From the NCBI GenBank assembly GCA_003283685.1, contig QBWD01000013.1, positions 1 through 22,388 on the forward strand: a stretch of DNA of 22,388 nucleotides, read 5' to 3'. Shown in pieces: positions 3,301-13,640 of this stretch. Each line of letters begins with the position of its first letter. The stretch's first letter is position 1. Made by a program: the position numbers and the translations under genes. The notes under the pieces are model-generated. The model was not told where the DNA came from. It was given only the letters and a program-made list of their open reading frames with translations, and did no database searches. The stretch comes from Prochlorococcus sp. AG-315-D17 (GTDB taxonomy: Bacteria; Cyanobacteriota; Cyanobacteriia; PCC-6307; Cyanobiaceae).

Positions 3301-3474
3301 ATGAGTGGAGATAATTTGCTTGGTGCGCAGCCTTTAAAGTTTTATTCAGAAGAAATGACTGAATCTAAATTGATTGTTTTATCTCACTTTGAAAAGAAAT
3401 TTGTTCATATTAGTAACTCTGTAATTTACTTAGACCAAAAGCTCAATAATTTCAGAGTTCCTGAAGCGGTTTAA
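3301..3474 (+). CDS. Small hypothetical protein (57 aa), intact paralogue of the relic at 11375
   Basis: A 57-codon ORF beginning MSGDNLLGAQPLKFYSEEM and continuing as a soluble, probably helical protein with mixed charge. GAGGA lies about nine bases upstream of the ATG. The strongest support for coding is a second, decayed copy at 11375-11522 that shares the MSGDNL, AQP, FYS and EMTE blocks in the same order: two copies of one protein family, one intact and one broken. Function unknown. Confidence 0.65.
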   Translation: MSGDNLLGAQPLKFYSEEMTESKLIVLSHFEKKFVHISNSVIYLDQKLNNFRVPEAV

Positions 3475-3691: not shown

Positions 3692-4183
3692 CTATTGGTT
3701 AGATTCCTTTGCTAAAAATTCAATATATTTTTTCAATGTGTAGCCATGGCAATCATGTGGATGGATTGAGTTTGCTCGCCCCGTATGTTCATCATTAGCT
3801 CTGAATCTTCGACAATCACAAATAAGATCAATATTATTTCCTTTTAAATATTCCTTTTTTCTAGCTTGAAACCATTCTCGAGCTAACTCTTCCATTGCAT
3901 CGCAAGCATGCCATGAATCCCAAAGCAACTTGTCAAACATCTTTATTGCCTCTTCTCTAGTTGTGAAGTCTTCGCAGATGTTTCTTACTGGAGAATCCTT
4001 TCTATTGATGTAGAACTTTTTAGGTGGTTTATCTAATCCTTTTACATATCTGTTTGGCTTTGTATGACCATTAGGTAATTGTCTAGGTTCAAACTCCTCA
4101 CAGATTTTCCTTGCATCAAGCATACCTAGAACCTCAATTTGCTCCCACTTTTTCTTCGGATGTACTTCTGGTTCCTCTGTCAT
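3692..4183 (-). CDS. DUF4326-like protein (163 aa)
   Basis: The middle and C-terminal parts follow the DUF4326 pattern. That is YINRKDSPVRNI (58-69, like the family's IGRGSxxGNP segment), TREEAIKMFDKLLW (75-88), then LICDC (120-124) and, after a loop, DCHGYTLKKYIEFL (144-157), equivalent to the family's CWC and CHGDxL. The cysteines and histidine at 122-146 could bind a metal. Family members occur in phages and in bacterial accessory regions and have no settled function. The N-terminal 50 residues are charged and unrecognised. It is a single gene transcribed away from the DUF3303 gene. The start is the first ATG. Confidence 0.6.
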   Translation of the reverse strand: MTEEPEVHPKKKWEQIEVLGMLDARKICEEFEPRQLPNGHTKPNRYVKGLDKPPKKFYINRKDSPVRNICEDFTTREEAIKMFDKLLWDSWHACDAMEELAREWFQARKKEYLKGNNIDLICDCRRFRANDEHTGRANSIHPHDCHGYTLKKYIEFLAKESNQ

Positions 4184-4391
4184 GACAACTAAATCAGAGT
4201 AAGCAGTAAGAAGCGTTTCATTTATTCAACATACACGAATTGATTGCCATTACCTTACCCCCACTATCTTTTAAAGATCATTGTAATTATATTTTTCTCA
4301 CCAATAAAAGCATTTTCAACACACCTCTATACAGGATTGGAATTACATACATTTTAATTGTTGAAAAAATACATTTTCTATGGAATCTTTC

Positions 4392-4520
4392 TTAATACTG
4401 ATACTTGTCGTTGAATGATCGTGGGTTTATCAGTGATCCTTTTTGCGTCATGTATTCCCATGACTAATTTTCCCGAAAGTAATTCTCGATTTTGAACTTA
4501 AGAACAGGCTTCTCTTCCAT
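4392..4520 (-). pseudogene. Small ORF interrupted by one in-frame stop
   Basis: From an ATG at 4520 the frame reads MEEKPVLKFKIENYFREN, then TAG (4466-4464), then SWEYMTQKG and on to NDKYQY before TAA. Both halves stay in one frame and look like soluble protein. Either this is a 42-residue gene broken by one nonsense change, or only the first 18 codons are read. It could also be chance in the otherwise empty 4184-4596 interval. Not recognised. Confidence 0.3.
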
Positions 4521-4596
4521 ATCTTTGAGTTGAGCTCCTAACAATTAAGGATATAACAGGCGTGAGTAATTAGAAAAAGATCTAATTATTATTTTT

Positions 4597-4908
4597 ATGA
4601 TGGCACTTTTCAAACTTGATTGGACATTCCCTACTCAGGAATTGGGTTATGCTGGTGGTGAGAAATTTCTTGAATTTTTGGAAGCTGGTGCTCCTTCTGA
4701 TAAATCTGAAGGTTTTGAAATTTTATGGCGTGTAACTAATCCACTAAATGGAACAGGTACATTTGTAGCTGAAGCGATTGATATAAGCAAAATGTGGGAA
4801 TATGCAGCTCCTTGGATAAAGGGTTATGGATGTGAGTGTGAAGTAGAGGCAGTATTTTCTGATGAAAACTTTATAGCTACTGCGAAGAAAATTTATGCTT
4901 CTGAATAA
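4597..4908 (+). CDS. DUF3303-family protein (103 aa)
   Basis: This is a small soluble protein. The segments LDWTFPTQELGYAGGEKFLEF (about 7-27), GAPSDKSEGFEILWRV (31-46), a GTGTFVAEA strand (52-60) and a WIKGYGCECEVEAVFSD block (73-89) follow the pattern of short cyanobacterial DUF3303 proteins, which have a ferredoxin-like fold and no known role. Two ATGs in tandem (4597 and 4600) could both serve. An 11-bp hairpin follows the stop. Confidence 0.65.
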   Translation: MMALFKLDWTFPTQELGYAGGEKFLEFLEAGAPSDKSEGFEILWRVTNPLNGTGTFVAEAIDISKMWEYAAPWIKGYGCECEVEAVFSDENFIATAKKIYASE

Positions 4909-4914
4909 CGCAAT

Positions 4915-4941
4915 AGGATTTATTTAATTTAAATAAATCCT
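4915..4941 (+). terminator. Hairpin after the DUF3303 gene
   Basis: AGGATTTATTT and AAATAAATCCT form a perfect 11-bp stem with a 5-nt loop, seven bases past the stop at 4908. The flank is A-rich with no long T-run, so it may protect the 3' end rather than terminate strongly. Confidence 0.5.
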
Positions 4942-5060
4942 AAAATAAATTTTCATGAAGCTTGGTTCGTTACTACTTGATTGACTGTCAATAGACTCTT
5001 TTACGCATTGTTGAAAATATCTAAGTAGCTATAAAGGTGTTGTACTAAATTCAAATGTAA

Positions 5061-5228
5061 ATGATTAGAGCACGCATGACATGTCTACCTGTGACCAAAG
5101 GAGCTATAGAAGTTAAGATTGTTGAAAGGAATTGGGGCATTGAAAGGTGCTATGTCTCTCCAGAGGGCGAAAAGATTTGCACTCCTGCACCTTTTCTTAC
5201 GAATAATCGAAAGTTAAAGTGGTCATGA
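5061..5228 (+). CDS. Small hypothetical protein (55 aa)
   Basis: An ORF beginning MIRARMTCLPVTKGAIEVKI, with a central ERNWGIERCYVSPEGEKIC and a basic end. It has three cysteines and alternating hydrophobic residues suggesting a small beta-rich soluble protein. An internal ATG at codon 6 is an alternative start. The residue pattern is protein-like, but no homologue is recognised and no ribosome site is clear. Confidence 0.42.
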   Translation: MIRARMTCLPVTKGAIEVKIVERNWGIERCYVSPEGEKICTPAPFLTNNRKLKWS

Positions 5229-5474
5229 TTGGGATGAAAATGGTCTCCTTTTTAACAGTAAGTAAGTGGATTAGAACCTGAGAATAAACTTATATTATAT
5301 GTTCTAATTTCTTGGAATAAACCTACGAAAGTATTAAATGTAAATCCCTAATGTACATTTGCTTTCTGTGAATGTATAAAAAGTTAGTTATAGCTTTTAT
5401 AAATTTATAATTAGATATTTATTAAATTATTTAAGGTTTTATCTGCTATTAATAACAGAATTATTTTGATTATC

Positions 5475-5624
5475 ATGATGAATCTTACATTTGCTGGGCT
5501 TCTAAGTACACCAGCTCCAAGTGCAGTTCTTGCAGGCGTTGCAGCAATTGTTGTATTTGCAATTGTTGGACTTGCAGTTGGTCCAAATTATGATGGGATG
5601 AATGCTCCCGAAGTGAGAAAATAG
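5475..5624 (+). CDS. Single-span membrane microprotein (49 aa)
   Basis: MMNLTFAGLLSTPAPSAVLAG is followed by a strongly hydrophobic Ala/Val/Ile stretch (about 17-37) and a short polar tail (GPNYDGMNAPEVRK). One membrane helix is predicted. Its size and shape resemble small photosystem or cytochrome subunits, but I cannot match it to a named one. ATG codons stand at 5475 and 5478. The strong hairpin at 5642-5679 follows closely and also serves the convergent gene at 5682. Confidence 0.62.
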   Translation: MMNLTFAGLLSTPAPSAVLAGVAAIVVFAIVGLAVGPNYDGMNAPEVRK

Positions 5625-5641
5625 TTTATAATTTAAATTTT

Positions 5642-5680
5642 AAATGCACTAAGACTATTAAGTTTGTCTTAGTGCATTTT
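5642..5680. terminator. Bidirectional terminator, 14-bp perfect stem
   Basis: AAATGCACTAAGAC pairs perfectly with GTCTTAGTGCATTT around a 10-nt loop. A-runs and T-runs on the outer edges make it work as a rho-independent terminator on both strands. It sits between two convergent small genes, 5475-5624 (+) and 5682-5900 (-). Confidence 0.85.
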
Positions 5681-5681
5681 A

Positions 5682-5900
5682 TTACTTATTTATTTCTTTT
5701 AAATCGCTAAAAGCTTTTAATGGAATTTTTTTAGATTGTCTCCATACTGCTGCCATTAAAAGAGCTATAAATCCAATAATTGGAAGAAATTGAAGTAGTT
5801 CCATAGTGGAAGGGTCAATATTGATACCCCTAAAAGGATCACTAAGAGATACGGGAACAAATTCCACTTGGTTTAGTAATTCACTAATTGATACTTGCAT
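5682..5900 (-). CDS. Small membrane protein (72 aa), hypothetical
   Basis: The N-terminal half is polar to acidic (MQVSISELLNQVEFVPVSLS). One hydrophobic helix lies at about 34-52 (ELLQFLPIIGFIALLMAAV), and the tail is basic (WRQSKKIPLKAF). By the positive-inside rule the C-terminus is cytoplasmic. It is convergent with 5475-5624 and shares its terminator. Not recognised. Confidence 0.62.
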   Translation of the reverse strand: MQVSISELLNQVEFVPVSLSDPFRGINIDPSTMELLQFLPIIGFIALLMAAVWRQSKKIPLKAFSDLKEINK

Positions 5901-6082
5901 TTTAGTTTTATATTTTACCTAATATAGACAAGAAAATTTTAAATCTAATGAGATTTATTACATTAAAGTGTTTCATATGCTTCGACATGAAGGGGGATCT
6001 GATTACGTTCAATGGTGATATTAGTTTTGCGATATACTTTAGAATTGCTTATTAATATATTAACTCTATTTTAATTCTTTGA

Positions 6083-6349
6083 ATGTCTGATATCAATCAA
6101 TTTAGAGGAATGATAAATGAACTGGAGATTGAGAAATTATCAGAGATCTGTGAACAGTTCTTGTTTGATCATGAAGGCGCTATGAAGACATTATCTGAAT
6201 GCTGTTATAATTTTGGGATACAGATTAATGATTTAGAAATTAAGTATTATATGTCTACTATGCATTCTAATGGTGACTTTGATCATGTAGTTTGTTTTGG
6301 AATAGAGCTTTCAGAAAACCAGTTATACAAAAAATTTCATCCAGCATAA
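6083..6349 (+). CDS. Hypothetical protein (88 aa), first of three
   Basis: A soluble, acidic protein starting MSDINQFRGMINELEIEKLS, helical at the N-terminus, with three cysteines (about 23, 40, 41) and a fourth near the end. No ribosome site is visible before the ATG. Two more small genes follow at 3 and 11 bases, so the three probably form one transcript. Not recognised. Confidence 0.6.
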   Translation: MSDINQFRGMINELEIEKLSEICEQFLFDHEGAMKTLSECCYNFGIQINDLEIKYYMSTMHSNGDFDHVVCFGIELSENQLYKKFHPA

Positions 6350-6351
6350 TT

Positions 6352-6663
6352 ATGGCTTCATCATCTGATGAATTTAGATTTTTCTGTAATATTGCTAAAT
6401 ACTTTAGTACTAAAAAGTTGCATGAATTAGAATACTATTGGAGATATAATAGTACACACCCAATACATCACAAAATGCATAGAATGATTGAATCAGTGCA
6501 AGTTAGGCGAAGTGAAAAAACTTATAAGTATCATAGACTAGAATTGATAAATTATCTAGATAAATGTTGGTCAATCTCAAATCCTATGGGTCGTCTTAGT
6601 GCACGGTTAATAGGATATATTAGTCAACTTGTCGAACGAAAGGATATTACTAATCTAGATTAA
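6352..6663 (+). CDS. Hypothetical protein (103 aa), second of three
   Basis: I start it at the ATG at 6352 (MASSSDEFRFFCNIAKYF), two bases after the preceding stop. The open frame extends upstream to 6292, but that part overlaps the first gene out of frame. The protein is basic, rich in His, Tyr and Arg (HPIHHKMHRMIESVQVRR, about 36-53), and helical. This could suit nucleic-acid binding, though that is a guess. Not recognised. Confidence 0.58.
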   Translation: MASSSDEFRFFCNIAKYFSTKKLHELEYYWRYNSTHPIHHKMHRMIESVQVRRSEKTYKYHRLELINYLDKCWSISNPMGRLSARLIGYISQLVERKDITNLD

Positions 6664-6674
6664 AAATAAATACA

Positions 6675-6908
6675 ATGAATTCAGAAAAAAGAGCTCTCTT
6701 AGAATCTCGGAATAAATGTCAAATTGATATTAAAATGTATAAGGACTTTCTAAATGGGAAGACTCAAACCTTTGAGGGAAGATATGGCGCAGAGGAATAC
6801 ATAATGATGGCAGAAAATAGATTAAAAGATATCAATCAGAAATTAGAGAGAATGGAGAAGGATAAAAACTTAAATTCTATAATTGAAAAAAAACTATCAC
6901 TCCAATAA
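6675..6908 (+). CDS. Coiled-coil hypothetical protein (77 aa), third of three
   Basis: A charged, almost wholly helical protein: MNSEKRALLESRNKCQIDIK, then MAENRLKDINQKLERMEKDK at about 48-67 with heptad-like spacing of Leu, Ile and Met. A short coiled coil is likely. It lies 11 bases after the preceding gene and looks co-transcribed with it. Function unknown. Confidence 0.58.
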   Translation: MNSEKRALLESRNKCQIDIKMYKDFLNGKTQTFEGRYGAEEYIMMAENRLKDINQKLERMEKDKNLNSIIEKKLSLQ

Positions 6909-7008
6909 TATATTAAGAAGAAATTATAATTAAAGTTATATTTTTAAGTAAAATTCTTATTTGTTCTTGGTCTGTTATTTTTTTTTACCGATTTTACATT
7001 AGTACTAT

Positions 7009-7242
7009 TTATTTCGTTTTCAAGGCAGATTTTTTCTCTAGTGCTTCTTTTCTTAGGGACTCTTTATCATCAGCTTCTTTCTCTTCGGCTATTTTTGCTG
7101 CTAAAACAAACGATTCTTTAAATGTTAATTTTGCTTTTAGTTTCCCAGATTCTCTCATCCATTCGTTAAAACTGACTTCCTTTCCATTGGCTTCATATTC
7201 TTTTTTATCTCTAAGGAATGGAAACCAGAGATTATCAGCTGA
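7009..7242 (-). pseudogene. Start-less coding remnant (77 codons open)
   Basis: On the minus strand 77 codons are open, read SADNLWFPFLRDKKEYEANG and then FNEWMRESGKLKAKLTF before a Lys/Glu-rich helical tail (AAKIAEEKEADDKE), and end at TAA. The preceding stop (TAA) is two codons upstream, and no ATG, GTG or TTG occurs before Met29. The frame looks like the C-terminal part of a real protein that lost its start. An alternative is a 49-residue product from Met29. Family not recognised. Confidence 0.5.
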
Positions 7243-7326
7243 GTATTAATTGTTTATATTTAAATGGCTTTAGACATTTCTTAAGTAGCTTTCCTCAATC
7301 ATCTAATATTCGCTACATTTATAGGT

Positions 7327-7470
7327 TTATTCTTTAGTCATTAATTGTGCTTTTATACAGTTAGCTTTATTGTGATATTTAATACTTGTTAGTGGATGAT
7401 AATAAATATCTGTTGCAGGAATAATTACATATATAAGTCCATTAATTATTTCTGATTTGTATAGTTGAGT
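7327..7470 (-). pseudogene. Start-less coding remnant (47 codons open)
   Basis: The minus strand reads TQLYKSEIINGLIYVIIPAT, then DIYYHPLTSIKYHNK and ends QLMTKE before TAA. The run is free of stops and has a good residue pattern, but no start codon lies between the upstream TAA and Met44. It is probably the surviving end of a small gene; a frameshifted 5' end cannot be excluded. It sits just upstream (in reading direction) of the remnant at 7009-7242, in another frame. Confidence 0.4.
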
Positions 7471-7500
7471 TTACTCAATTTAATATTTATGCTCTAATCA

Positions 7501-7698
7501 ATGGACTCTTCTATCGCATTAGCTATTATCCTAACTTTTGCTGGGTTGATTATTTTTATACTAATTTCTAAGAATGATCTGGGTGTAACTACCTTTAACA
7601 AAGATGCTGAATCTTATTCCACACTTCTAGCAACTATTGCTACAGGACTTCCCGGGACAACTATTTTAAATCCAGTCAATAAGAGTGATGCAGAATAA
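7501..7698 (+). CDS. Small membrane protein (65 aa), hypothetical
   Basis: MDSSIALAIILTFAGLIIFI forms an N-terminal hydrophobic helix (about 4-23), followed by a polar tail of about 40 residues with a TTFNKDAESYSTLLATIATG segment. It may be an uncleaved signal anchor with the tail outside the cytoplasm, or the reverse; the charges around the helix do not decide it. It is a lone gene with no clear ribosome site. Not recognised. Confidence 0.58.
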   Translation: MDSSIALAIILTFAGLIIFILISKNDLGVTTFNKDAESYSTLLATIATGLPGTTILNPVNKSDAE

Positions 7699-7930
7699 TC
7701 TAATATTAATTGCAATTTTTAAGTTAAGGGGCTAAATAACCAGAGGATTTTGTCCTATATTGTACCTGAATTTGTACTAAAAATCCCATAACCATTTATA
7801 CTGTGAATCATCTAATTATTGTTTTTGGGAATGACTTATGTCTTTAAACAATCTAGCTTAAAGAACTAAGGATGCCAAACTAGAACTTGTATTGTCTTTA
7901 ATGTGACTAATTTAGCTTCTTCTTTCTCTA

Positions 7931-8077
7931 ATGATATATCAACTGCTACCTCTGGTTTTTAGAACCGCTGACGCTCTTGAATATTATGTCCAAAGATTAA
8001 ATGCAGAGTTAATTACTCATTGTTATTCTGAATCTGATCGAATAGCTAATAGACGTTGGACTATTAATGTAAAATAA
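7931..8077 (+). CDS. Small hypothetical protein (48 aa)
   Basis: An ORF starting MIYQLLPLVFRTADALEYYV and ending RRWTINVK. The N-terminus is hydrophobic and amphipathic; the rest is polar (RLNAELITHCYSESDRIANR). It is likely helical and membrane-associated. Coding is suggested by residue pattern and codon use alone. Not recognised. Confidence 0.5.
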   Translation: MIYQLLPLVFRTADALEYYVQRLNAELITHCYSESDRIANRRWTINVK

Positions 8078-8177
8078 TATGTAGGCCTCTTGTTTTGTAT
8101 CTCTAATTTAATTAGAGAAAGGAATATAGAAGATGCTTTAGTGATATTTTTTGTTAATAGCATATTTATAGTGCATT

Positions 8178-8529
8178 TTAATTTTGTTTGTCTTCATAGC
8201 TAAGATCATATTGATTTCATATCGTTTTGCAAAGCGCATAAATCTATTGAAATCTTCTTTTGTTTTCCAACAGTAAATCTCTTCTATAGCTGTATATTTT
8301 CCATTCTTTCTGGAAACAGTAATATTTATCTCTTTTGTCGATAGTGAACCTTCCTCATCAATTAAATATATTACCTGTATTTCTTTGAAATTATATTATG
8401 TCACAGCTGCTGGATTCTCGAATCCAAAAAAGCCTGACCAGCTTGCCCATCTTTACCTTTAGTTAGTCTAATTTGAGGGATCACATCTTCGTTGATTCCA
8501 TTGAAAAATTTTATTGCTGCAAAGCTCAT
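8178..8529 (-). pseudogene. psb28: psb28 pseudogene (photosystem II assembly factor Psb28)
   Basis: Psb28 binds CP47 and PSII assembly intermediates at the thylakoid membrane. From the ATG at 8529 the frame reads MSFAAIKFFNGINEDVIPQI, then RLTKGKDGQAGQAF, the Psb28 N-terminal pattern (family: IQFxxGxxExxxPxxRLTRSxxGxxGxAxF). In the next frame come GFENPAAVT, a TAA (8398-8396), NFKEIQVIYLIDEEGSLSTK, then KTKEDFNRFMRFAKRYE, which match the family's GMYLIDEEGE and WDRFMRFMERY. The frame slips by one base at a run of six T (coding strand, 8431-8426), and a nonsense codon interrupts the second half. A third slip near 8200 would restore SYEDKQN and a stop at 8178. The total span of 352 nt equals the normal gene (about 112-117 codons). 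At least two lesions make a functional product unlikely. Confidence 0.85.
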
Positions 8530-8972
8530 TAGTCCTTAAATCAATTTATTGTTCCAGTGATGAAACTTCTATCTATTACTACTAGGATTAACCATATGGA
8601 TTCTAACTTTTCCTTCTGAATACAAAATCTCAGTAATGCTTAAGGTGTTATGTGTAGATAATTTTTTGTTGTTGGACTTCGCTTTCATTCTTTTAGTTCA
8701 ACATTACAAGTCATCTCTACTTATAGACTATAAGAAGTTTGTTTTTTGTTTTTTCCTATTGTTTTTCAAAATAGAATCATATTTGCTACATATGATTGAA
8801 TCTTTTATTAAATTTTCTTTAACTCATTATACGTATTCAGTTCTTATTCCGAATTAATGATTTTAATCCATACAGAATAGTAGCTTCTGCCTCTTTGGAT
8901 TTTTAAACTTTACTTTTATAAGTGGCTTTTCCTTGAAAAGAACTTATCCTTTGTTTCTTGTCCTTAGTTAGT
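8530..8972. other. Interval without a supported gene
   Basis: This interval lies upstream of the psb28 relic. The only long open frame (8636-8857, +) is rich in Phe and Leu, as expected from T-rich non-coding DNA, and has no ribosome site, so I do not call it. No repeats were seen. Confidence 0.5.
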
Positions 8973-9000
8973 TTGAATCGTTATTTCATTAGGTTATTAC
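8973..9000 (+). promoter_or_regulatory. Possible promoter of an orphan transcript
   Basis: TTGAAT (8973-8978) and TATTAC (8995-9000) are 16 bases apart, close to a sigma70 promoter, with the start expected near 9007. A terminator lies about 80 bases downstream and no ORF lies between them. In AT-rich DNA such pairs also occur by chance. Confidence 0.3.
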
Positions 9001-9083
9001 TAAGAGATTAGTTATACGAACCCATCAAATGATCTTGATAATAAAGCTATCAGCTTAGTTAGAAAAATCTTCTGAAGGAAATC

Positions 9084-9110
9084 AAGGGGCGGGGATAAGC
9101 CCCTTCTTTC
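9084..9110 (+). terminator. Rho-independent terminator without an upstream gene
   Basis: AAGGGGC and GCCCCTT form a 7-bp G+C-rich stem around GGGGATAA, followed by CTTTC. No plus-strand ORF worth calling ends within 200 bases upstream, so it may end a small RNA starting near 9007. Confidence 0.6.
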
Positions 9111-9294
9111 TATGTCAATAAAATAAATATATAACCCGTAGAATTGCAATTTATACAATTCAGGATTAACAATATGTACTAGGTGTAGTTACCTATAGTT
9201 ATCAATGTAAGGAGAAATTCGATTAAGTTTGTTTGCGAAGGTATGGTCTTCGAACAAAAAGTAAGTGATTTTCAATGCAAATCGCTTTATTTAC

Positions 9295-9672
9295 ATGCTA
9301 TTTGCAGCGTATGAACCAGGACAAGCAATGGCTATCGCAAATTTATCACTCGCCGTATTCTGTGCATTTACAATTTGCCTACCTTTTTTACTAATAACTC
9401 GTGGAGATAAAACAGAAGCTAATCGAGAGTTTCTTATTTCAACAGTTAATCCGTGGTCTCATATTGAACCGAAATTAGAGTTAACACCAATCGTAGATAC
9501 TGGAGTCATTCCAATAAATGAAATGGCACCAAATCTAGAAATTGTACCTGACTCTAATGCCGTAATTTCTGAGTCTGAAGAAGTACTTTCTACGGAGCCT
9601 AAAGGTTCTGAAGAGTTAGTAGAAGCATCAAGTTCGGCATCCTTAAGAACTGATGAAGCTATAGCCGCTTAA
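9295..9672 (+). CDS. Membrane protein with long acidic tail (125 aa), hypothetical
   Basis: I start it at the ATG at 9295 (MLFAAYEPGQAMAIANLSLA); the frame is open to a GTG at 9265, which would add ten residues. A hydrophobic helix runs at about 12-34 (IANLSLAVFCAFTICLPFLL), followed by a positively charged segment (TRGDKTEANR), then about 80 residues rich in Glu, Ser, Pro and Val with low complexity near the end (SEELVEASSSASLRTDEAIA). It is probably a single-pass protein with a disordered acidic domain. The terminator at 9741-9774 follows. Not recognised. Confidence 0.62.
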   Translation: MLFAAYEPGQAMAIANLSLAVFCAFTICLPFLLITRGDKTEANREFLISTVNPWSHIEPKLELTPIVDTGVIPINEMAPNLEIVPDSNAVISESEEVLSTEPKGSEELVEASSSASLRTDEAIAA

Positions 9673-9740
9673 CAGGGAAAACATAGAAGCCTATAAAAGG
9701 TTAGTACTACTATCCTGGTTGAATTTGGATCTTGCAGGGC

Positions 9741-9774
9741 AAAGGGCACTGGCTTATGTCAGTCCCTTTCTTTG
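9741..9774. terminator. Terminator between convergent genes
   Basis: AAAGGG-C-ACTG pairs with CAGT-CCCTTT (one bulged C) around an 8-nt loop, followed by CTTTG. It ends the 9295 gene, and the minus-strand gene at 9783 also runs into it. Confidence 0.72.
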
Positions 9775-9782
9775 TAGAAATG

Positions 9783-10124
9783 CTAATTATTTACCATTTT
9801 AAAGCCTGAGCCACATGGACTTCCTTCTGCTCCTTTAGGGGGGCTAATCAAAAAACCTCCACCACTCAAGTCACCATAATGATCAAGTTTTAACCCTTTC
9901 AATAAACTAAGTTGATCTTCCGGAGCAAATAAGGTGATTCCATCAGTTCTTGCAACAGGAATACCAGCTTGCTTCCCACATCTGATTCGAAGATACAACC
10001 AACCTTCATCAAAACCATCGGATAATAAATCAATATGCATTTCGCCAGGAGTACCTCCGAATGCAGATTGTCTAAGTAGTTCAGCAGTGGCAGATTTGCT
10101 AATAGTTAAGTTGAAACCCATCAT
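9783..10124 (-). CDS. HesB/IscA-family (A-type Fe-S carrier-like) protein, atypical Cys motif
   Basis: A 113-aa protein with the HesB/IscA layout: LTISKSATAELLRQSAF at the start (6-22), a central YLRIRCGKQAGIPV (44-57), LFAPEDQLSLLKGLKLDHYG (65-84), and an end reading GGGFLISPPKG, then PCGSGF (103-108). A-type carriers bring Fe-S clusters to apoproteins through three cysteines, one central and two in CGCG near the C-terminus. Here Cys49 and Cys104 remain but the last Cys is Ser (CGSG), so binding of a cluster through three thiols is not possible. It may be a divergent relative rather than a working carrier. Two tandem ATGs stand at the start. It is a single gene. Confidence 0.78.
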   Translation of the reverse strand: MMGFNLTISKSATAELLRQSAFGGTPGEMHIDLLSDGFDEGWLYLRIRCGKQAGIPVARTDGITLFAPEDQLSLLKGLKLDHYGDLSGGGFLISPPKGAEGSPCGSGFKMVNN

Positions 10125-10490
10125 GCAATGTTACTTATTGATATTTAGTTTAGAGAACTATTAGTTTCTTTATTCATTATGACATTTTAACCGAACAATC
10201 ATCTTTCCTAGGATTTTCCTGAATATTAATCTCACATATATTATTTGAATTAATAATTTAATAGAAGATAAATTTGTTTTTAATCGATAGAGGGTAGCTA
10301 TTTATCGGGATACCTAACTCATAAGTATTCCCAACCAATCTGGGTCGTATAGGCCGAATAGTTTGCTTCGGGTTACATCCTTTTCTATTCTTTTTCCTTA
10401 CGACAAAGTAGTAATGCCCCTTGAACGAAACTAATGTATTACTCTTTCTTTGATGCTGTATTTTCTGATTCTTTCATATCTCCAATGTGA
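10125..10490. other. Interval without a supported gene
   Basis: The minus strand carries a start-less open run at about 10282-10477 rich in Arg and Lys (for example NRKGCNPKQTIRPIRPR). It uses codons such as CGG, CGA and CCC that are rare here, so I do not call it. No hairpin or repeat stands out. Confidence 0.4.
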
Positions 10491-10718
10491 ACTGTTTATG
10501 TTATTTCAGATAGTCAGCTTGAAGAACTCAAGAATAAAGTATGTCAAGAAGAACTCGACAATATCAACGTTTCTCGAAAAAGGCTTGAGAAGATCTATCA
10601 AGCTTGTTTAAAAGTATTCGGTGAGAGTCAGCATGAACTACAAGAAGAAATGAAGGCCTTGCTCCAACTCCTAAAGAAAAAGTTACCACTTAATTTCTAC
10701 TCAAGTGCTAGTTTATAA
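10491..10718 (+). pseudogene. Start-less coiled-coil remnant (75 codons)
   Basis: The frame after a TGA reads SDSQLEELKNKVCQEELDNI, then NVSRKRLEKIYQACLKVFGE and a helical tail ending SSASL before TAA. Charge and leucine spacing are those of a helical protein, and the frame is clean for 75 codons, but no ATG, GTG or TTG precedes Met56. It is probably the remains of a small gene that lost its 5' end. The hairpin at 10747 lies just downstream and could have been its terminator. Confidence 0.5.
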
Positions 10719-10746
10719 TTACACTTGATTGACAGTCGATTTGTCT

Positions 10747-10772
10747 GGGGAATACTGCCCCCCTTTTTTTTA
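10747..10772 (+). terminator. Short hairpin with T-run just before the DUF1499 start
   Basis: GGGG, a 7-nt loop and CCCC are followed by two more C and seven T, ending two to three bases before the ATG at 10774. It looks like a rho-independent terminator with a short stem. It may end the remnant at 10491-10718, or act in the leader of the DUF1499 gene. Confidence 0.5.
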
Positions 10773-10773
10773 T

Positions 10774-11187
10774 ATGATCAGACATATTCTAAAAGCCTTT
10801 GCAAGCACCTTTTTTTTTCTCTTGGTTCTTTTTTTTAGTATCACTCCAGCAGAAATAAATGCAGCTACAAAGGAACTTCCTGAATGTGTTGTGGTTACAC
10901 ACTGTGTAAAACAAGATTTTAACGTAAACAACTTAGAAGATGCATTTGTAAAAGCTGTTGACATTGTTTCTAGTACTCCTCGTACAAAAATAGTTGAGCA
11001 AACTAATTCGTATATTCATGCTGAAGCTAAGACTAAATGGAGAAGATATACAGATGATTTTGTTCTGATAGCAATCCCTGAGAAAGGAATCATTCAAGTC
11101 AGATCAGAATCAAGAGTTGGAATTGGAGATAATGGGGTTAATAAGAAGAGGATTGATGACTTTGCCTATCGTCTTATGATTGAATAG
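10774..11187 (+). CDS. DUF1499-family protein with signal peptide (137 aa)
   Basis: I start it at the ATG at 10774 (MIRHILKAFASTFFFLLVLF); the open frame reaches a TTG at 10729, but that would place a terminator hairpin inside the gene. Residues 1-30 form a signal peptide with a likely cut after INA. The mature part has LEDAFVKAVDIVSSTPRTKI (54-73), YIHAEAKTKWRRYTDDF (80-96), then IIQVRSESRVGIGDNGVNKK (106-125), the core of DUF1499 (family: RSxSRxGxSDxGxNxxR). Its function is unknown; the signal suggests a periplasmic or membrane-edge location. A diverged paralogue is at 20318. Confidence 0.8.
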   Translation: MIRHILKAFASTFFFLLVLFFSITPAEINAATKELPECVVVTHCVKQDFNVNNLEDAFVKAVDIVSSTPRTKIVEQTNSYIHAEAKTKWRRYTDDFVLIAIPEKGIIQVRSESRVGIGDNGVNKKRIDDFAYRLMIE

Positions 11188-11374
11188 AATTCTTATTTAG
11201 GGAGATATATAAGCTAAATAACTAATAATATAAATATTCAATAAGGAGCCTTCATTGCATTAACAATCCTAGTCAATAATTTTATATGTAAAGCAAGGAG
11301 GACTCTCTTAGTAAAGAGTTTGATTGTCTGGAACTTTATCTTGAAAACCTGAAAGATTTTTGCTTTTATGAATC

Positions 11375-11522
11375 ATGAGTGGAGACAACCTATTTGCTTA
11401 ACAGCCAATATAGTTTTACTCAAAAAGAAATGACTGAAATCAAGTTTAAATTAGTGCGTCATTACTTGAAATTAATTTATCAATGCCACTCAATCATTGA
11501 TTTAGATAGGAAACACAAATAA
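11375..11522 (+). pseudogene. Decayed paralogue of the 3301 gene
   Basis: From the ATG the frame reads MSGDNLFA, TAA, QPI, TAG, FYS, which matches MSGDNLLGAQPLKFYS of the intact gene at 3301 position for position with two nonsense codons. A run of five A then shifts the frame by one, after which EMTEIKFKLVRHYLKLIYQC continues to TAA, parallel to EMTESKLIVLSHFEKKF in the intact copy. Three lesions make it a pseudogene. Immediately upstream, a start-less open run (EFDCLELYLENLKDFCFYES) ends in a TGA that overlaps this ATG as ATGA. Confidence 0.75.
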
Positions 11523-11658
11523 TGTTGACAGCATATAGTTAGTTAAGGGGTGGAATCTGTTTTAATCTTTTCTTTAATCATATTTAGATATTTTGTTTTT
11601 AATTTCTTTTTTCTCTCTTTCAAGAATTTCTTTAATTGTTGTAGCTTCATTAATTTGC

Positions 11659-11877
11659 TTAGTCCTTTTTAGAGGGATAAAGACGTGCAATTTTTCTTTT
11701 TTGTTCGTCCTTAGCAGCTTTTTTTCTTTCCCTATCTTTCAAAGAATCTGAATCATTGGTTACCTTATAAAATACCATCCCCATCAGACCGCTAAAGATT
11801 ATCCCAGTAATAATGAGTATTATCCCGATACTCCCTGTGGGACTTAGGTAATCGAAATTAAAGCCAATTGTGTCCAT
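11659..11877 (-). CDS. Small membrane protein (72 aa), downstream of nitroreductase
   Basis: The N-terminus MDTIGFNFDYLSPTGS is followed by a hydrophobic helix at about 16-37 (IGIILIITGIIFSGLMGMVF) and a highly charged, helical Lys/Arg-rich tail (KDRERKKAAKDEQKRKIARL). By the positive-inside rule the tail is cytoplasmic. It starts seven bases after the nitroreductase stop, and AAGGA overlapping that stop can serve as its ribosome site, so the two are probably co-transcribed. A further open stretch in another frame (IKEILEREKKEIKNKISK, to about 11563) could be a frameshifted extension. Not recognised. Confidence 0.62.
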   Translation of the reverse strand: MDTIGFNFDYLSPTGSIGIILIITGIIFSGLMGMVFYKVTNDSDSLKDRERKKAAKDEQKRKIARLYPSKKD

Positions 11878-11884
11878 AGATCTA

Positions 11885-12454
11885 TTAATCCTTTTCTCTG
11901 AAAGTGGAGCTAATGGAAGGTCTATTTATTGATGTTGGTATATCTCCATATCCTACCCATATAAACCCAATTATTTTTTCTTCACTCGGGCTTATTTCAG
12001 CAATTTCATAAGTACGCATTTCGGTAGTAATATTCCCTGTTGACCACTTACTTCCCACTCCATCTCCAACAAGTGAAAGAGATAAGTTTTGAATTGCACA
12101 AGCACAAGCTGCATAATCTTCGCGTGCTTGAACTTGATTGTTTGTAGATATTTGACTTGCTATAAGTAAATGAGAAGGGTTAAGAACTTTAGCCCTAATT
12201 CTCTCAATGTTTTTTTGATCTGTTGGCATATCACCAAGCTTTAATTTCAGTTGCAATTTAAGAAGGAGCTCTCTTTTATTTCTTCCAATGCTTGTAAAAC
12301 GCCAGGGGAAAGTCATTCGGTGACAAGGCGCCTGATTAGCTGCATCTATTGACTTTTCAATTATTTCTTTAGGAACTCTTTTCTTAGAAAAAGAATGAAT
12401 TGTCCTTCGTTCTCTGATTGCTTGTACTATTTCCATGATTTTTTTTAAGTTCAT
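11885..12454 (-). CDS. Nitroreductase-family FMN flavoprotein (189 aa)
   Basis: The protein has the nitroreductase layout: AIRERRTIHSFSKKRVPKEI (12-31), where the RRT/S and the Arg-rich start contact the FMN phosphate, then IDAANQAPCHRMTFPWRF (36-53, family AAxxAPSxxNxxPWxF), HLLIASQ (95-101), a helix ACACAIQNLSLSLVGDGVGS (116-135) and the end IIGFIWVGYGDIP (161-173). Members reduce nitro compounds, quinones or enones with NAD(P)H, cytoplasmic and usually dimeric; the substrate cannot be told. GAGGG precedes the ATG. A small membrane protein follows, and another FMN-type flavoprotein lies upstream with a HAD relic between them. Confidence 0.85.
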   Translation of the reverse strand: MNLKKIMEIVQAIRERRTIHSFSKKRVPKEIIEKSIDAANQAPCHRMTFPWRFTSIGRNKRELLLKLQLKLKLGDMPTDQKNIERIRAKVLNPSHLLIASQISTNNQVQAREDYAACACAIQNLSLSLVGDGVGSKWSTGNITTEMRTYEIAEISPSEEKIIGFIWVGYGDIPTSINRPSISSTFREKD

Positions 12455-12501
12455 TAACCCTCAATCTTGAATCATACTTAGTCATGACTTCAGTGATTCA
12501 G

Positions 12502-12633
12502 CTATACAGGCTCAGTATCAAGAAGGACTCCATCAAGATAAAAAAATAATGCTTGTAGTTTTTTAAACTTGGGTTTATATGAACTCTTTACTTCTCTTTG
12601 TAGAGAGGCAATATATTTTCTTCGTTTACTTAT
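12502..12633 (-). pseudogene. HAD-superfamily hydrolase relic (N-terminal motif I only)
   Basis: The minus strand, without a start codon, reads LQREVKSSYKPKFKKLQALF then FYLDGVLLDTEPV and stops at TAG. ALFFYLDGVLLDTEP matches motif I of CbbY or beta-phosphoglucomutase-like HAD phosphatases (FDLDGVLxDTE), but the nucleophile Asp is replaced by Tyr and the remaining 200 or so residues are absent; the nitroreductase start follows 48 bases later. It is a short relic with no activity expected. The match rests on about 14 residues. Confidence 0.5.
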
Positions 12634-12665
12634 TCAATGATTAATTTTAAGCACATTTCTAGGCC

Positions 12666-13217
12666 TCATGGATTAATTCTTTCTTCTGTCCAATCACTTT
12701 CTCTTAACCAACGTCTTCTTATATGTACTGGTTTTTGGAAAATTAACTGTTCCACTTGATTTATTACTATCTTTATCAAAATAAAGTTATTTAACTTTGG
12801 TGTTCCCTCTTTTATTTCACTAGGAAAAAAAGAATCTTTTTCATATTTATCACCTGGTCGTGGCCATGCCCATAAAGACTTAGCATTTGGTGAAAGATTC
12901 TCCCATTGAGTCAAAGCATCATTATCGTCATCTATTTTTGATATTCCTCTGAATCTAAATTGACATTTTGAATTGGGAAATAGCCAGCATATCTCAACGT
13001 TATTATTTTTCTTTATTTCTTTAAACTTTTCACTTCTCTTGTCTGTCAAGACTTCTATTTCATACTCTTTAGTCCAACCTCTAAAAACAACTGTTCTTAC
13101 TCTAGGAGAATTATCCATGCCAACTGTTGAGAATTGAATCCATCTAGAGAAATTTTTATTTGACTCTTTTTTTTGACTATCAATCACTTGCTGGATCCAA
13201 GGAGGCATATTCTGCAT
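12666..13217 (-). CDS. Alr4036-type (Npun_F5749 family) PNPOx-like FMN flavoprotein (183 aa)
   Basis: This belongs to the split-barrel flavin-binding fold of pyridoxamine 5'-phosphate oxidases, in the cyanobacterial Alr4036 subgroup. Visible blocks are FSRWIQFSTVGMDNSPRVRT (23-42), VVFRGW (43-48), LTDKRSEKFKEI (57-68), VEICWLFPNSKCQFRFRG (74-91), SLWAWPRPGDKYE (114-126) and the C-terminal HIRRRWLRESDWTEERINP (165-183), which matches the family's end. It probably binds FMN; true PNP oxidase activity is unproven for this subgroup. Its ATG overlaps the TAA of the upstream membrane microprotein by one base (TAATG), suggesting coupling. An internal ATG at codon 4 is an alternative. Confidence 0.85.
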   Translation of the reverse strand: MQNMPPWIQQVIDSQKKESNKNFSRWIQFSTVGMDNSPRVRTVVFRGWTKEYEIEVLTDKRSEKFKEIKKNNNVEICWLFPNSKCQFRFRGISKIDDDNDALTQWENLSPNAKSLWAWPRPGDKYEKDSFFPSEIKEGTPKLNNFILIKIVINQVEQLIFQKPVHIRRRWLRESDWTEERINP

Positions 13218-13345
13218 TATTTTTTCTTCGTCTTTGTCTCAAATCCCTCTTTATAGTCAGCACCAGATTTATTAAACCAAGCAAGTAATGCTGCAATAGG
13301 TATTCCTATTGAAAGAGCAATGCCCCATTGAGTTATTTCGTGCAT
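13217..13345 (-). CDS. Membrane microprotein (42 aa) coupled to the Alr4036-type flavoprotein
   Basis: The ORF reads MHEITQWGIALSIGIPIAAL, then LAWFNKSGADYKEGFETK and a Lys-rich end. One hydrophobic helix is predicted at about 6-24, with a charged cytoplasmic tail. Its TAA overlaps the ATG of the flavoprotein gene by one base, which supports real translation. Its job could be to tether or regulate the flavoprotein, but this is inference from position only. Confidence 0.6.
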   Translation of the reverse strand: MHEITQWGIALSIGIPIAALLAWFNKSGADYKEGFETKTKKK

Positions 13346-13367
13346 TAGAAATTCATCGATTGGCTTT

Positions 13368-13640
13368 TTGGCTTTTGAAGACAATGATCATATTACAACT
13401 CAGTTAGCTTGGGTTGATGATAAATTTACTCTTGTAGCTGCATATACTACTGCTGATGACAACAACACTGAAGAGGGTCTAGATTTTAATGATTATTCGT
13501 CTTATTAAATAATCGGTAGCTATAGCTTCTGTGATGACTATAACCTGAGTGTGGTATCGGAGTGAAAGAAACAAGTCAACGCTCTTACTATTGAGACTTC
13601 ACTGAATATGGTTGAAAAAGGAAATACTGTGATTGTGTAA
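13368..13640 (+). pseudogene. Porin fragment with in-frame stops
   Basis: The frame reads LAFEDNDHITTQLAWVDDKF, then TLVAAYTTADD and FNDYSSY, TAA (13506-13508), IIGSYSFCDDYNLSVVSE, TGA (13563-13565), then NALTIETSLNMVEKGNTVIV and TAA. Alternating aromatic and hydrophobic residues, and phrases such as DKFTLVAAYT and GSYSFxDDYxLSV, resemble beta strands of the C-terminal barrel of cyanobacterial outer-membrane porins (Som/OprB type, normally 400-550 aa). One frame is kept across three stops, and the N-terminal part is missing. It is a non-functional relic; assignment to porins is by pattern. Confidence 0.58.

Follow-up and report, generated by a model that had tools for sequence, protein, structure and literature searches.

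The locus studied here raises two questions: whether a psb28 gene, whose product aids the assembly of photosystem II and which can be followed over its full length on the minus strand, has really been lost and, if so, which psb28 gene of the genome it was. The DNA analysed, hereafter called the window, is a whole stretch of 22,388 nucleotides from Prochlorococcus sp. AG-315-D17. A sequence-only reading had described a full-length psb28 remnant at 8178..8529, with Psb28 core peptides split over two frames, at least two lesions (at a run of six T and at a separate TAA) and a third slip near 8200 restoring the ending SYEDKQN, and had taken it for a lost, island-borne extra copy.

This description was borne out when the minus strand was read from 8529 to 8178 in three frames. 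Specifically, one frame contains RLTKGKDGQAGQAF, another contains IYLIDEEGSLSTKE and EDFNRFMRFAKRYE, and the C-terminal ending SYEDKQN appears in the third frame, followed by its own TAA at 8180-8178. A Psb28 profile search of both frames, the check on which the claim had been made to depend, detected similarity in each of them. The 42-aa ORF at 8529-8401 matches Pfam Psb28 (PF03912, 106 profile positions) with an E-value of 1.3e-6 and 29 bits (cut-off 25) over positions 1-30, and the downstream piece matches with an E-value of 6.1e-14 and 52.6 bits over positions 45-99. Alignment with ten intact copies from related genomes raised the lesion count to three, namely two one-base deletions and one nonsense change, and the six-T run, the TAA and the slip near 8200 each correspond to one of these (Table 1). 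The downstream part of the gene holds no ORF of at least 40 aa on the minus strand (ATG, GTG or TTG starts), and with a longest ORF of 42 aa the copy offers no frame translatable over the whole domain. Judged from its reading frames, the window copy is a pseudogene of PF03912, without the status of a working member of the family.

Table 1. Position of the psb28 remnant, of its lesions and of neighbouring features in the window.
Feature	Position	Strand	Remarks
psb28 pseudogene, second ('+2' type) Psb28 clade	8178..8529	-	Full length, three lesions
Surviving ORF, 42 aa	8401..8529	-	Psb28 residues 1-34, then 8 out-of-frame residues
Lesion 1, one-base deletion at a run of six T	8426..8431	-	Relative to the ten intact copies
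Lesion 2, in-frame TAA	8396..8398	-	Sense codon in the intact copies (alignment)
Lesion 3, one-base deletion at about 8218/8217	8217..8218	-	Placement depends on the alignment; puts the conserved C-terminal end in a third frame
Window DNA (about 2.1 kb) facing only about 0.1 kb in AG-315-C08	7138..9208	.	L137 10050-10158 in AG-315-C08
Relic with several stops	8556..8858	-	Resembles part (residues 72-173) of a 388-aa ORF in L002 and L136
Relic	7958..8074	+	Matches part (residues 38-76) of a 76-79 aa ORF in extra-psb28 loci
Intact 65-aa ORF	7501..7698	+	Related ORFs no more than 10 kb from the extra psb28 in 6 of 10 loci
ORF of the 94-98 aa type, broken by TAA (7248-7246)	7012..7263	-	ORF type shared with five related loci

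A run of six T is, in general, a plausible slippery site, and on this ground programmed frameshifting, or else read-through of the stop, might be invoked to obtain a functional protein from the separate frames. We give this practically no credence, since a change of frame at the T-run reaches the TAA about ten codons later, a further shift would be required near the C-terminus, each of the ten intact relatives is a single open frame, and conserved positions are altered in the window copy.

To place the remnant within its family, the read-through protein was used as a query. It matched 171 proteins at E <= 1e-3 among 175 candidates, and the best 120 of the 171 were inspected. The first 85 proteins are 59-70% identical to it, and P0115, a protein of Prochlorococcus sp. 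MIT 1307, is 48% identical. The close group has in common a two-residue insertion, which is absent from P0093, P0094, P0101, P0104, P0107 and P0115, as well as from the more distant P0091. A profile scan of genome_contigs with the close-group alignment confirmed 152 stretches; among the best 80 of these, which were examined, the eight best belong to Prochlorococcus genomes (78-83% against the query protein), and AG-402-B19, which is among these eight genomes, has another locus at 49%. Of the 13 genomes reached through these loci, two Psb28 genes were counted in each of the eight that carry the close type and a single one in each of the remaining five.

Copy number was then counted in 41 genomes of one Prochlorococcus genus, which from genome names and content is probably of the low-light type. 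Psb28 is present at least once in 34 of them and has no match in 7. A second psb28 of the close type occurs in ten (G001-G008, G017 and G018; 116-125 bits), and all ten also have the resident gene (92-108 bits). None of the ten extra copies has internal stops. That relatives of the remnant occur as second genes beside a resident psb28 supports the earlier proposal that it is a lost, island-borne extra copy. A DNA search with an intact extra copy gave strong matches in the same ten genomes (84-100% identity) and 15 weak ones, every one coinciding with a resident gene. In addition, a close-type profile matched 360 of 400 genomes of the family, with only the same ten above 200 bits and the next at 178.5.

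Two further loci came up in these searches. A second decayed psb28 considered in G031 (20 bits, two TAA) was rejected as a chance match, its tblastn E-value being only 1.2. At G212:C3:116796-117111 (L178/L182), psb28 lies in two overlapping stretches with a TGA and may be a further frameshifted copy. A phage origin of the clade was also considered and rejected: the read-through protein matched none of 50,697 phage records at E 1e-5, and P0001, the one query used, for close relatives only, had no confirmed match in viral_contigs.

The protein tree comprises 107 rows (97 different) and 115 columns; no fetched row was dropped, and some genes are present twice (e.g., L014 and L091). A fork supported at 99/90 unites 24 rows, which include the window copy and all ten second copies, and the resident copies stand apart as a group of their own (100/99), whose stem measures 0.88. 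The end branch of the window copy measures 0.72, against a median of 0.12, and is flagged as a long branch of unsure placement. As the columns are few for the rows, the bootstrap is unsettled and the inner forks are weak, the large groups alone were used. At that level, and as far as sequence tells, the window copy belongs to the extra-copy clade, apart from the resident copies. The resident Psb28 of the genus (L091-L121) is itself strongly diverged, and it is the accessory copy that obtains the higher score with the Pfam family.

The window copy has also changed at positions that its relatives keep. Of 61 columns with a conservation of 95% or more among 95 relatives, it differs at 10, the highest count in any relative being 6 and the median 1. 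The excess is smaller at stricter thresholds: 5 of 39 columns at 98% or more and 3 of 26 fully conserved columns, with a highest relative of 2 in both cases. The ten intact copies all agree on the residue at 72 codons; the window departs from them at 17 of these, including one lesion codon. The differences to the ten copies are still distributed over codon positions in a coding-like manner (first 0.17-0.26, second 0.13-0.14, third 0.39-0.48). A rough pN/pS of the window copy against the consensus is 0.24, and the intact copies range from 0 to 0.29, several on few changes, with 0.17 and 0.20 for the two most divergent (L001 and L008). Because 0.24 falls inside this range, pN/pS alone gives no sign of relaxed constraint. 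From the coding-like codon positions and the ordinary pN/pS it follows, therefore, that the gene was constrained for most of its separate history and that its decay is recent.

By DNA, the nearest of the 41 genus genomes is the single-cell genome AG-315-C08 (G011), which is colinear in blocks with window positions 3692-13405, mostly at 78-88% identity and with one short block at 73%. When the locus was compared with this relative, as the sequence-only reading had advised, the segment carrying the remnant was found to be absent there. Window positions 6857-7012 face about 0.5 kb of other sequence in AG-315-C08, so that the region is variable in both genomes. AG-315-C08 has one Psb28, an intact resident copy; its genome, of about 1.0 Mb, is perhaps incomplete, but the site matching the window is present.

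ORFs known from the loci of intact extra copies were sought in the window, starting from L001-L008, L135 and L136, and several of those adjoining psb28 were found to bear lesions as well (Table 1). The relic at 8556..8858 has an E-value of 4.9e-8 and 28% identity with the ORF in L002, and an E-value of 1.7e-7 with that in L136, these two being the loci of intact extra psb28 genes; no Pfam family was found for this 388-aa ORF. The AG-315-C08 stretch matching 7012-7263 holds only 40-aa ORFs. An alpha/beta hydrolase lies on the opposite strand about 0.9 kb before the extra psb28 in nine of the ten intact loci (L001-L007, L135 and L136; best Pfam match of the L001 protein Palm_thioest, E 2.6e-7), and a 52-aa ORF lies between the two genes in six; the window has no recognisable copy of either (best E 0.19 and 0.86, respectively). 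Compared with L001 or L003, the window has psb28 in another order and on another strand with respect to the common small ORFs, and the distance from psb28 to SelO, about 6 kb in the window, is about 53 kb in G017 and 63 kb in G018, on one contig in each case. Because order, strand and SelO distance all vary, the extra psb28 has no single constant site. A tRNA scan found none in the window and a tRNA-Pro in three of 11 scanned loci.

Farther away in the window, an ORF of an 87-aa type at 10434-10652 (+) has a TGA at 10488 and is open in AG-315-C08 (L137 11380-11643). Positions 11412-11543 and 3301-3441 (+) are both related to one 56-aa ORF of AG-315-C08; the alignment of the former has two stops, that of the latter none.

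As a control for the quality of the window sequence, we compared it with 20 kb of AG-315-C08: 21 ORFs of at least 45 aa there have a match in the window, and 17 of these align without a stop. Of the remaining four, two match the ORF broken by the TGA at 10488, the third overlaps a window ORF open over 55 aa (5061-5228) and the fourth shadows a larger gene, which is open. SelO aligns with its counterpart in G024 over 560 residues with no stop. These data bear on the possibility that the gene is intact and that its deletions and stop are artefacts of sequencing, amplification or assembly. One lesion does lie inside a homopolymer, and in its codon positions and pN/pS the copy still resembles a working gene; nevertheless, such an error is very unlikely, because the ORFs nearby have also decayed, because most of the ORFs common with AG-315-C08 are stop-free and because the changes at conserved residues exceed those of any of the 95 relatives. 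Moreover, it would have to account for as many as three distinct lesions, including a nonsense substitution, over a length of 352 bases. The earlier argument that the separate TAA speaks against a mere error at the T-run is upheld, and the third lesion, the changed conserved residues and the broken neighbours are likewise left unexplained by such an error.

All together, these data favour, with a probability that we put at roughly 0.88, the reading of the locus as the pseudogene of an accessory second psb28 in Prochlorococcus. An accessory psb28 of the clade with the two-residue insertion would have sat in a flexible segment, beside other small accessory ORFs, and would there have accumulated two single-base deletions and one nonsense change. 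Translation from the start codon would now yield a 42-residue fragment, unable to form the Psb28 fold, and Psb28 would presumably be supplied by a resident chromosomal copy elsewhere, as in AG-315-C08. We infer that this lineage's own resident psb28 exists and is intact, and the loss of the accessory copy was probably neutral rather than selected.

A different outcome would follow if the broken copy were the only psb28 of the genome and the strain lived without Psb28. The seven genus genomes with no Psb28 match (sizes 1.0-1.8 Mb, completeness not given) offer some precedent for this. We nevertheless consider it quite unlikely, since every one of the ten genomes with an intact copy of the clade also has a resident copy, and AG-315-C08 has its resident psb28 intact.

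In the relatives, the surroundings of the accessory gene showed an unexpected association. A FecCD permease, counted above 298 bits, is present in seven of the 41 genus genomes, and an extra psb28 accompanies it in five of these seven carriers, compared to five of the 34 other genomes (Fisher p 0.0055, uncorrected for kinship or genome completeness). In the five co-carriers both genes lie on one contig within 12 kb, separated by about 1.2 kb in G004, G006 and G017 and by 10-11 kb in G007 and G018. In L004, L006 and L135, ORFs close to the extra psb28 resemble components of a TonB system and of ABC uptake, the permease being the one tested by profile. The other five of the ten accessory-copy genomes show no FecCD-type permease, which is evidence against a strict link. 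Among the matches listed for 6.8-9.3 kb of the window (stop-containing hits), there is none to these uptake components, and therefore the siderophore link concerns the relatives only.

Siderophore clusters have been reported in 31% of LLI genomes (Hogle and colleagues, PMC9122953), in a study whose main text gave no hit for psb28 in a term search, and psb28 transcripts of Synechocystis are described as rising early in iron deprivation (PMC3516471). As far as these accounts go, the cluster frequency and the transcript rise fit, without proving, an iron-related role. It is conceivable, though we hold the idea as tentative and rather doubtful, that in this genus two Psb28 forms divide their roles, one being the fast-diverging resident form. 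The other, a more family-like accessory form that occupies flexible islands and in many cases neighbours a cluster for siderophore uptake, would serve the assembly of PSII or of chlorophyll-proteins under iron and light limitation, and the window lineage would have dropped it.

Taken by itself, the pseudogene records the kind of loss that is ordinary in small genomes of marine cells. Of more interest is the accessory Psb28 clade that came to light along with it: it scores high in 10 of 400 family genomes and includes many further sequences, and it adjoins siderophore-type uptake genes in half of its carriers, alongside a strongly diverged resident copy. If the accessory protein were an assembly factor for iron or light stress, the way it is gained and lost would offer a tractable example of how the maintenance of photosystems evolves by means of islands. 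A second or a broken psb28 in Prochlorococcus was not found among the listed titles and abstract openings of the literature on psb28, Psb28-2, streamlining and siderophores, and the accessory family seems to have been little noticed so far.

Comparison with known systems sets the locus in its context. Psb28-2 of Synechocystis resembles the product of the extra psb28 in being a second Psb28-family protein within one genome. With Psb28 itself (PF03912; chains 2kvo, 3zpn, 7dxa, 7dxh, 7nhp and 7nhq) the clade profile agrees closely (4.7e-35 for 7dxa chain A, 8.8e-35 for 3zpn), and both pieces of the window copy match the family, whereas the window copy lacks an open frame and its product would be a 42-residue fragment. 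The two-residue insertion distinguishes the window's clade from the six family members without it named above, from P0093 to P0115. The closest counterparts are the ten intact second psb28 genes (L001-L008, G017 and G018): they fall in the same clade (99/90), their nucleotide identity to the window copy is 74-76% for L001-L008 and 73-74% for G017 and G018, and partly the same small ORFs lie nearby, but these relatives are free of internal stops, whereas the window copy carries three lesions.
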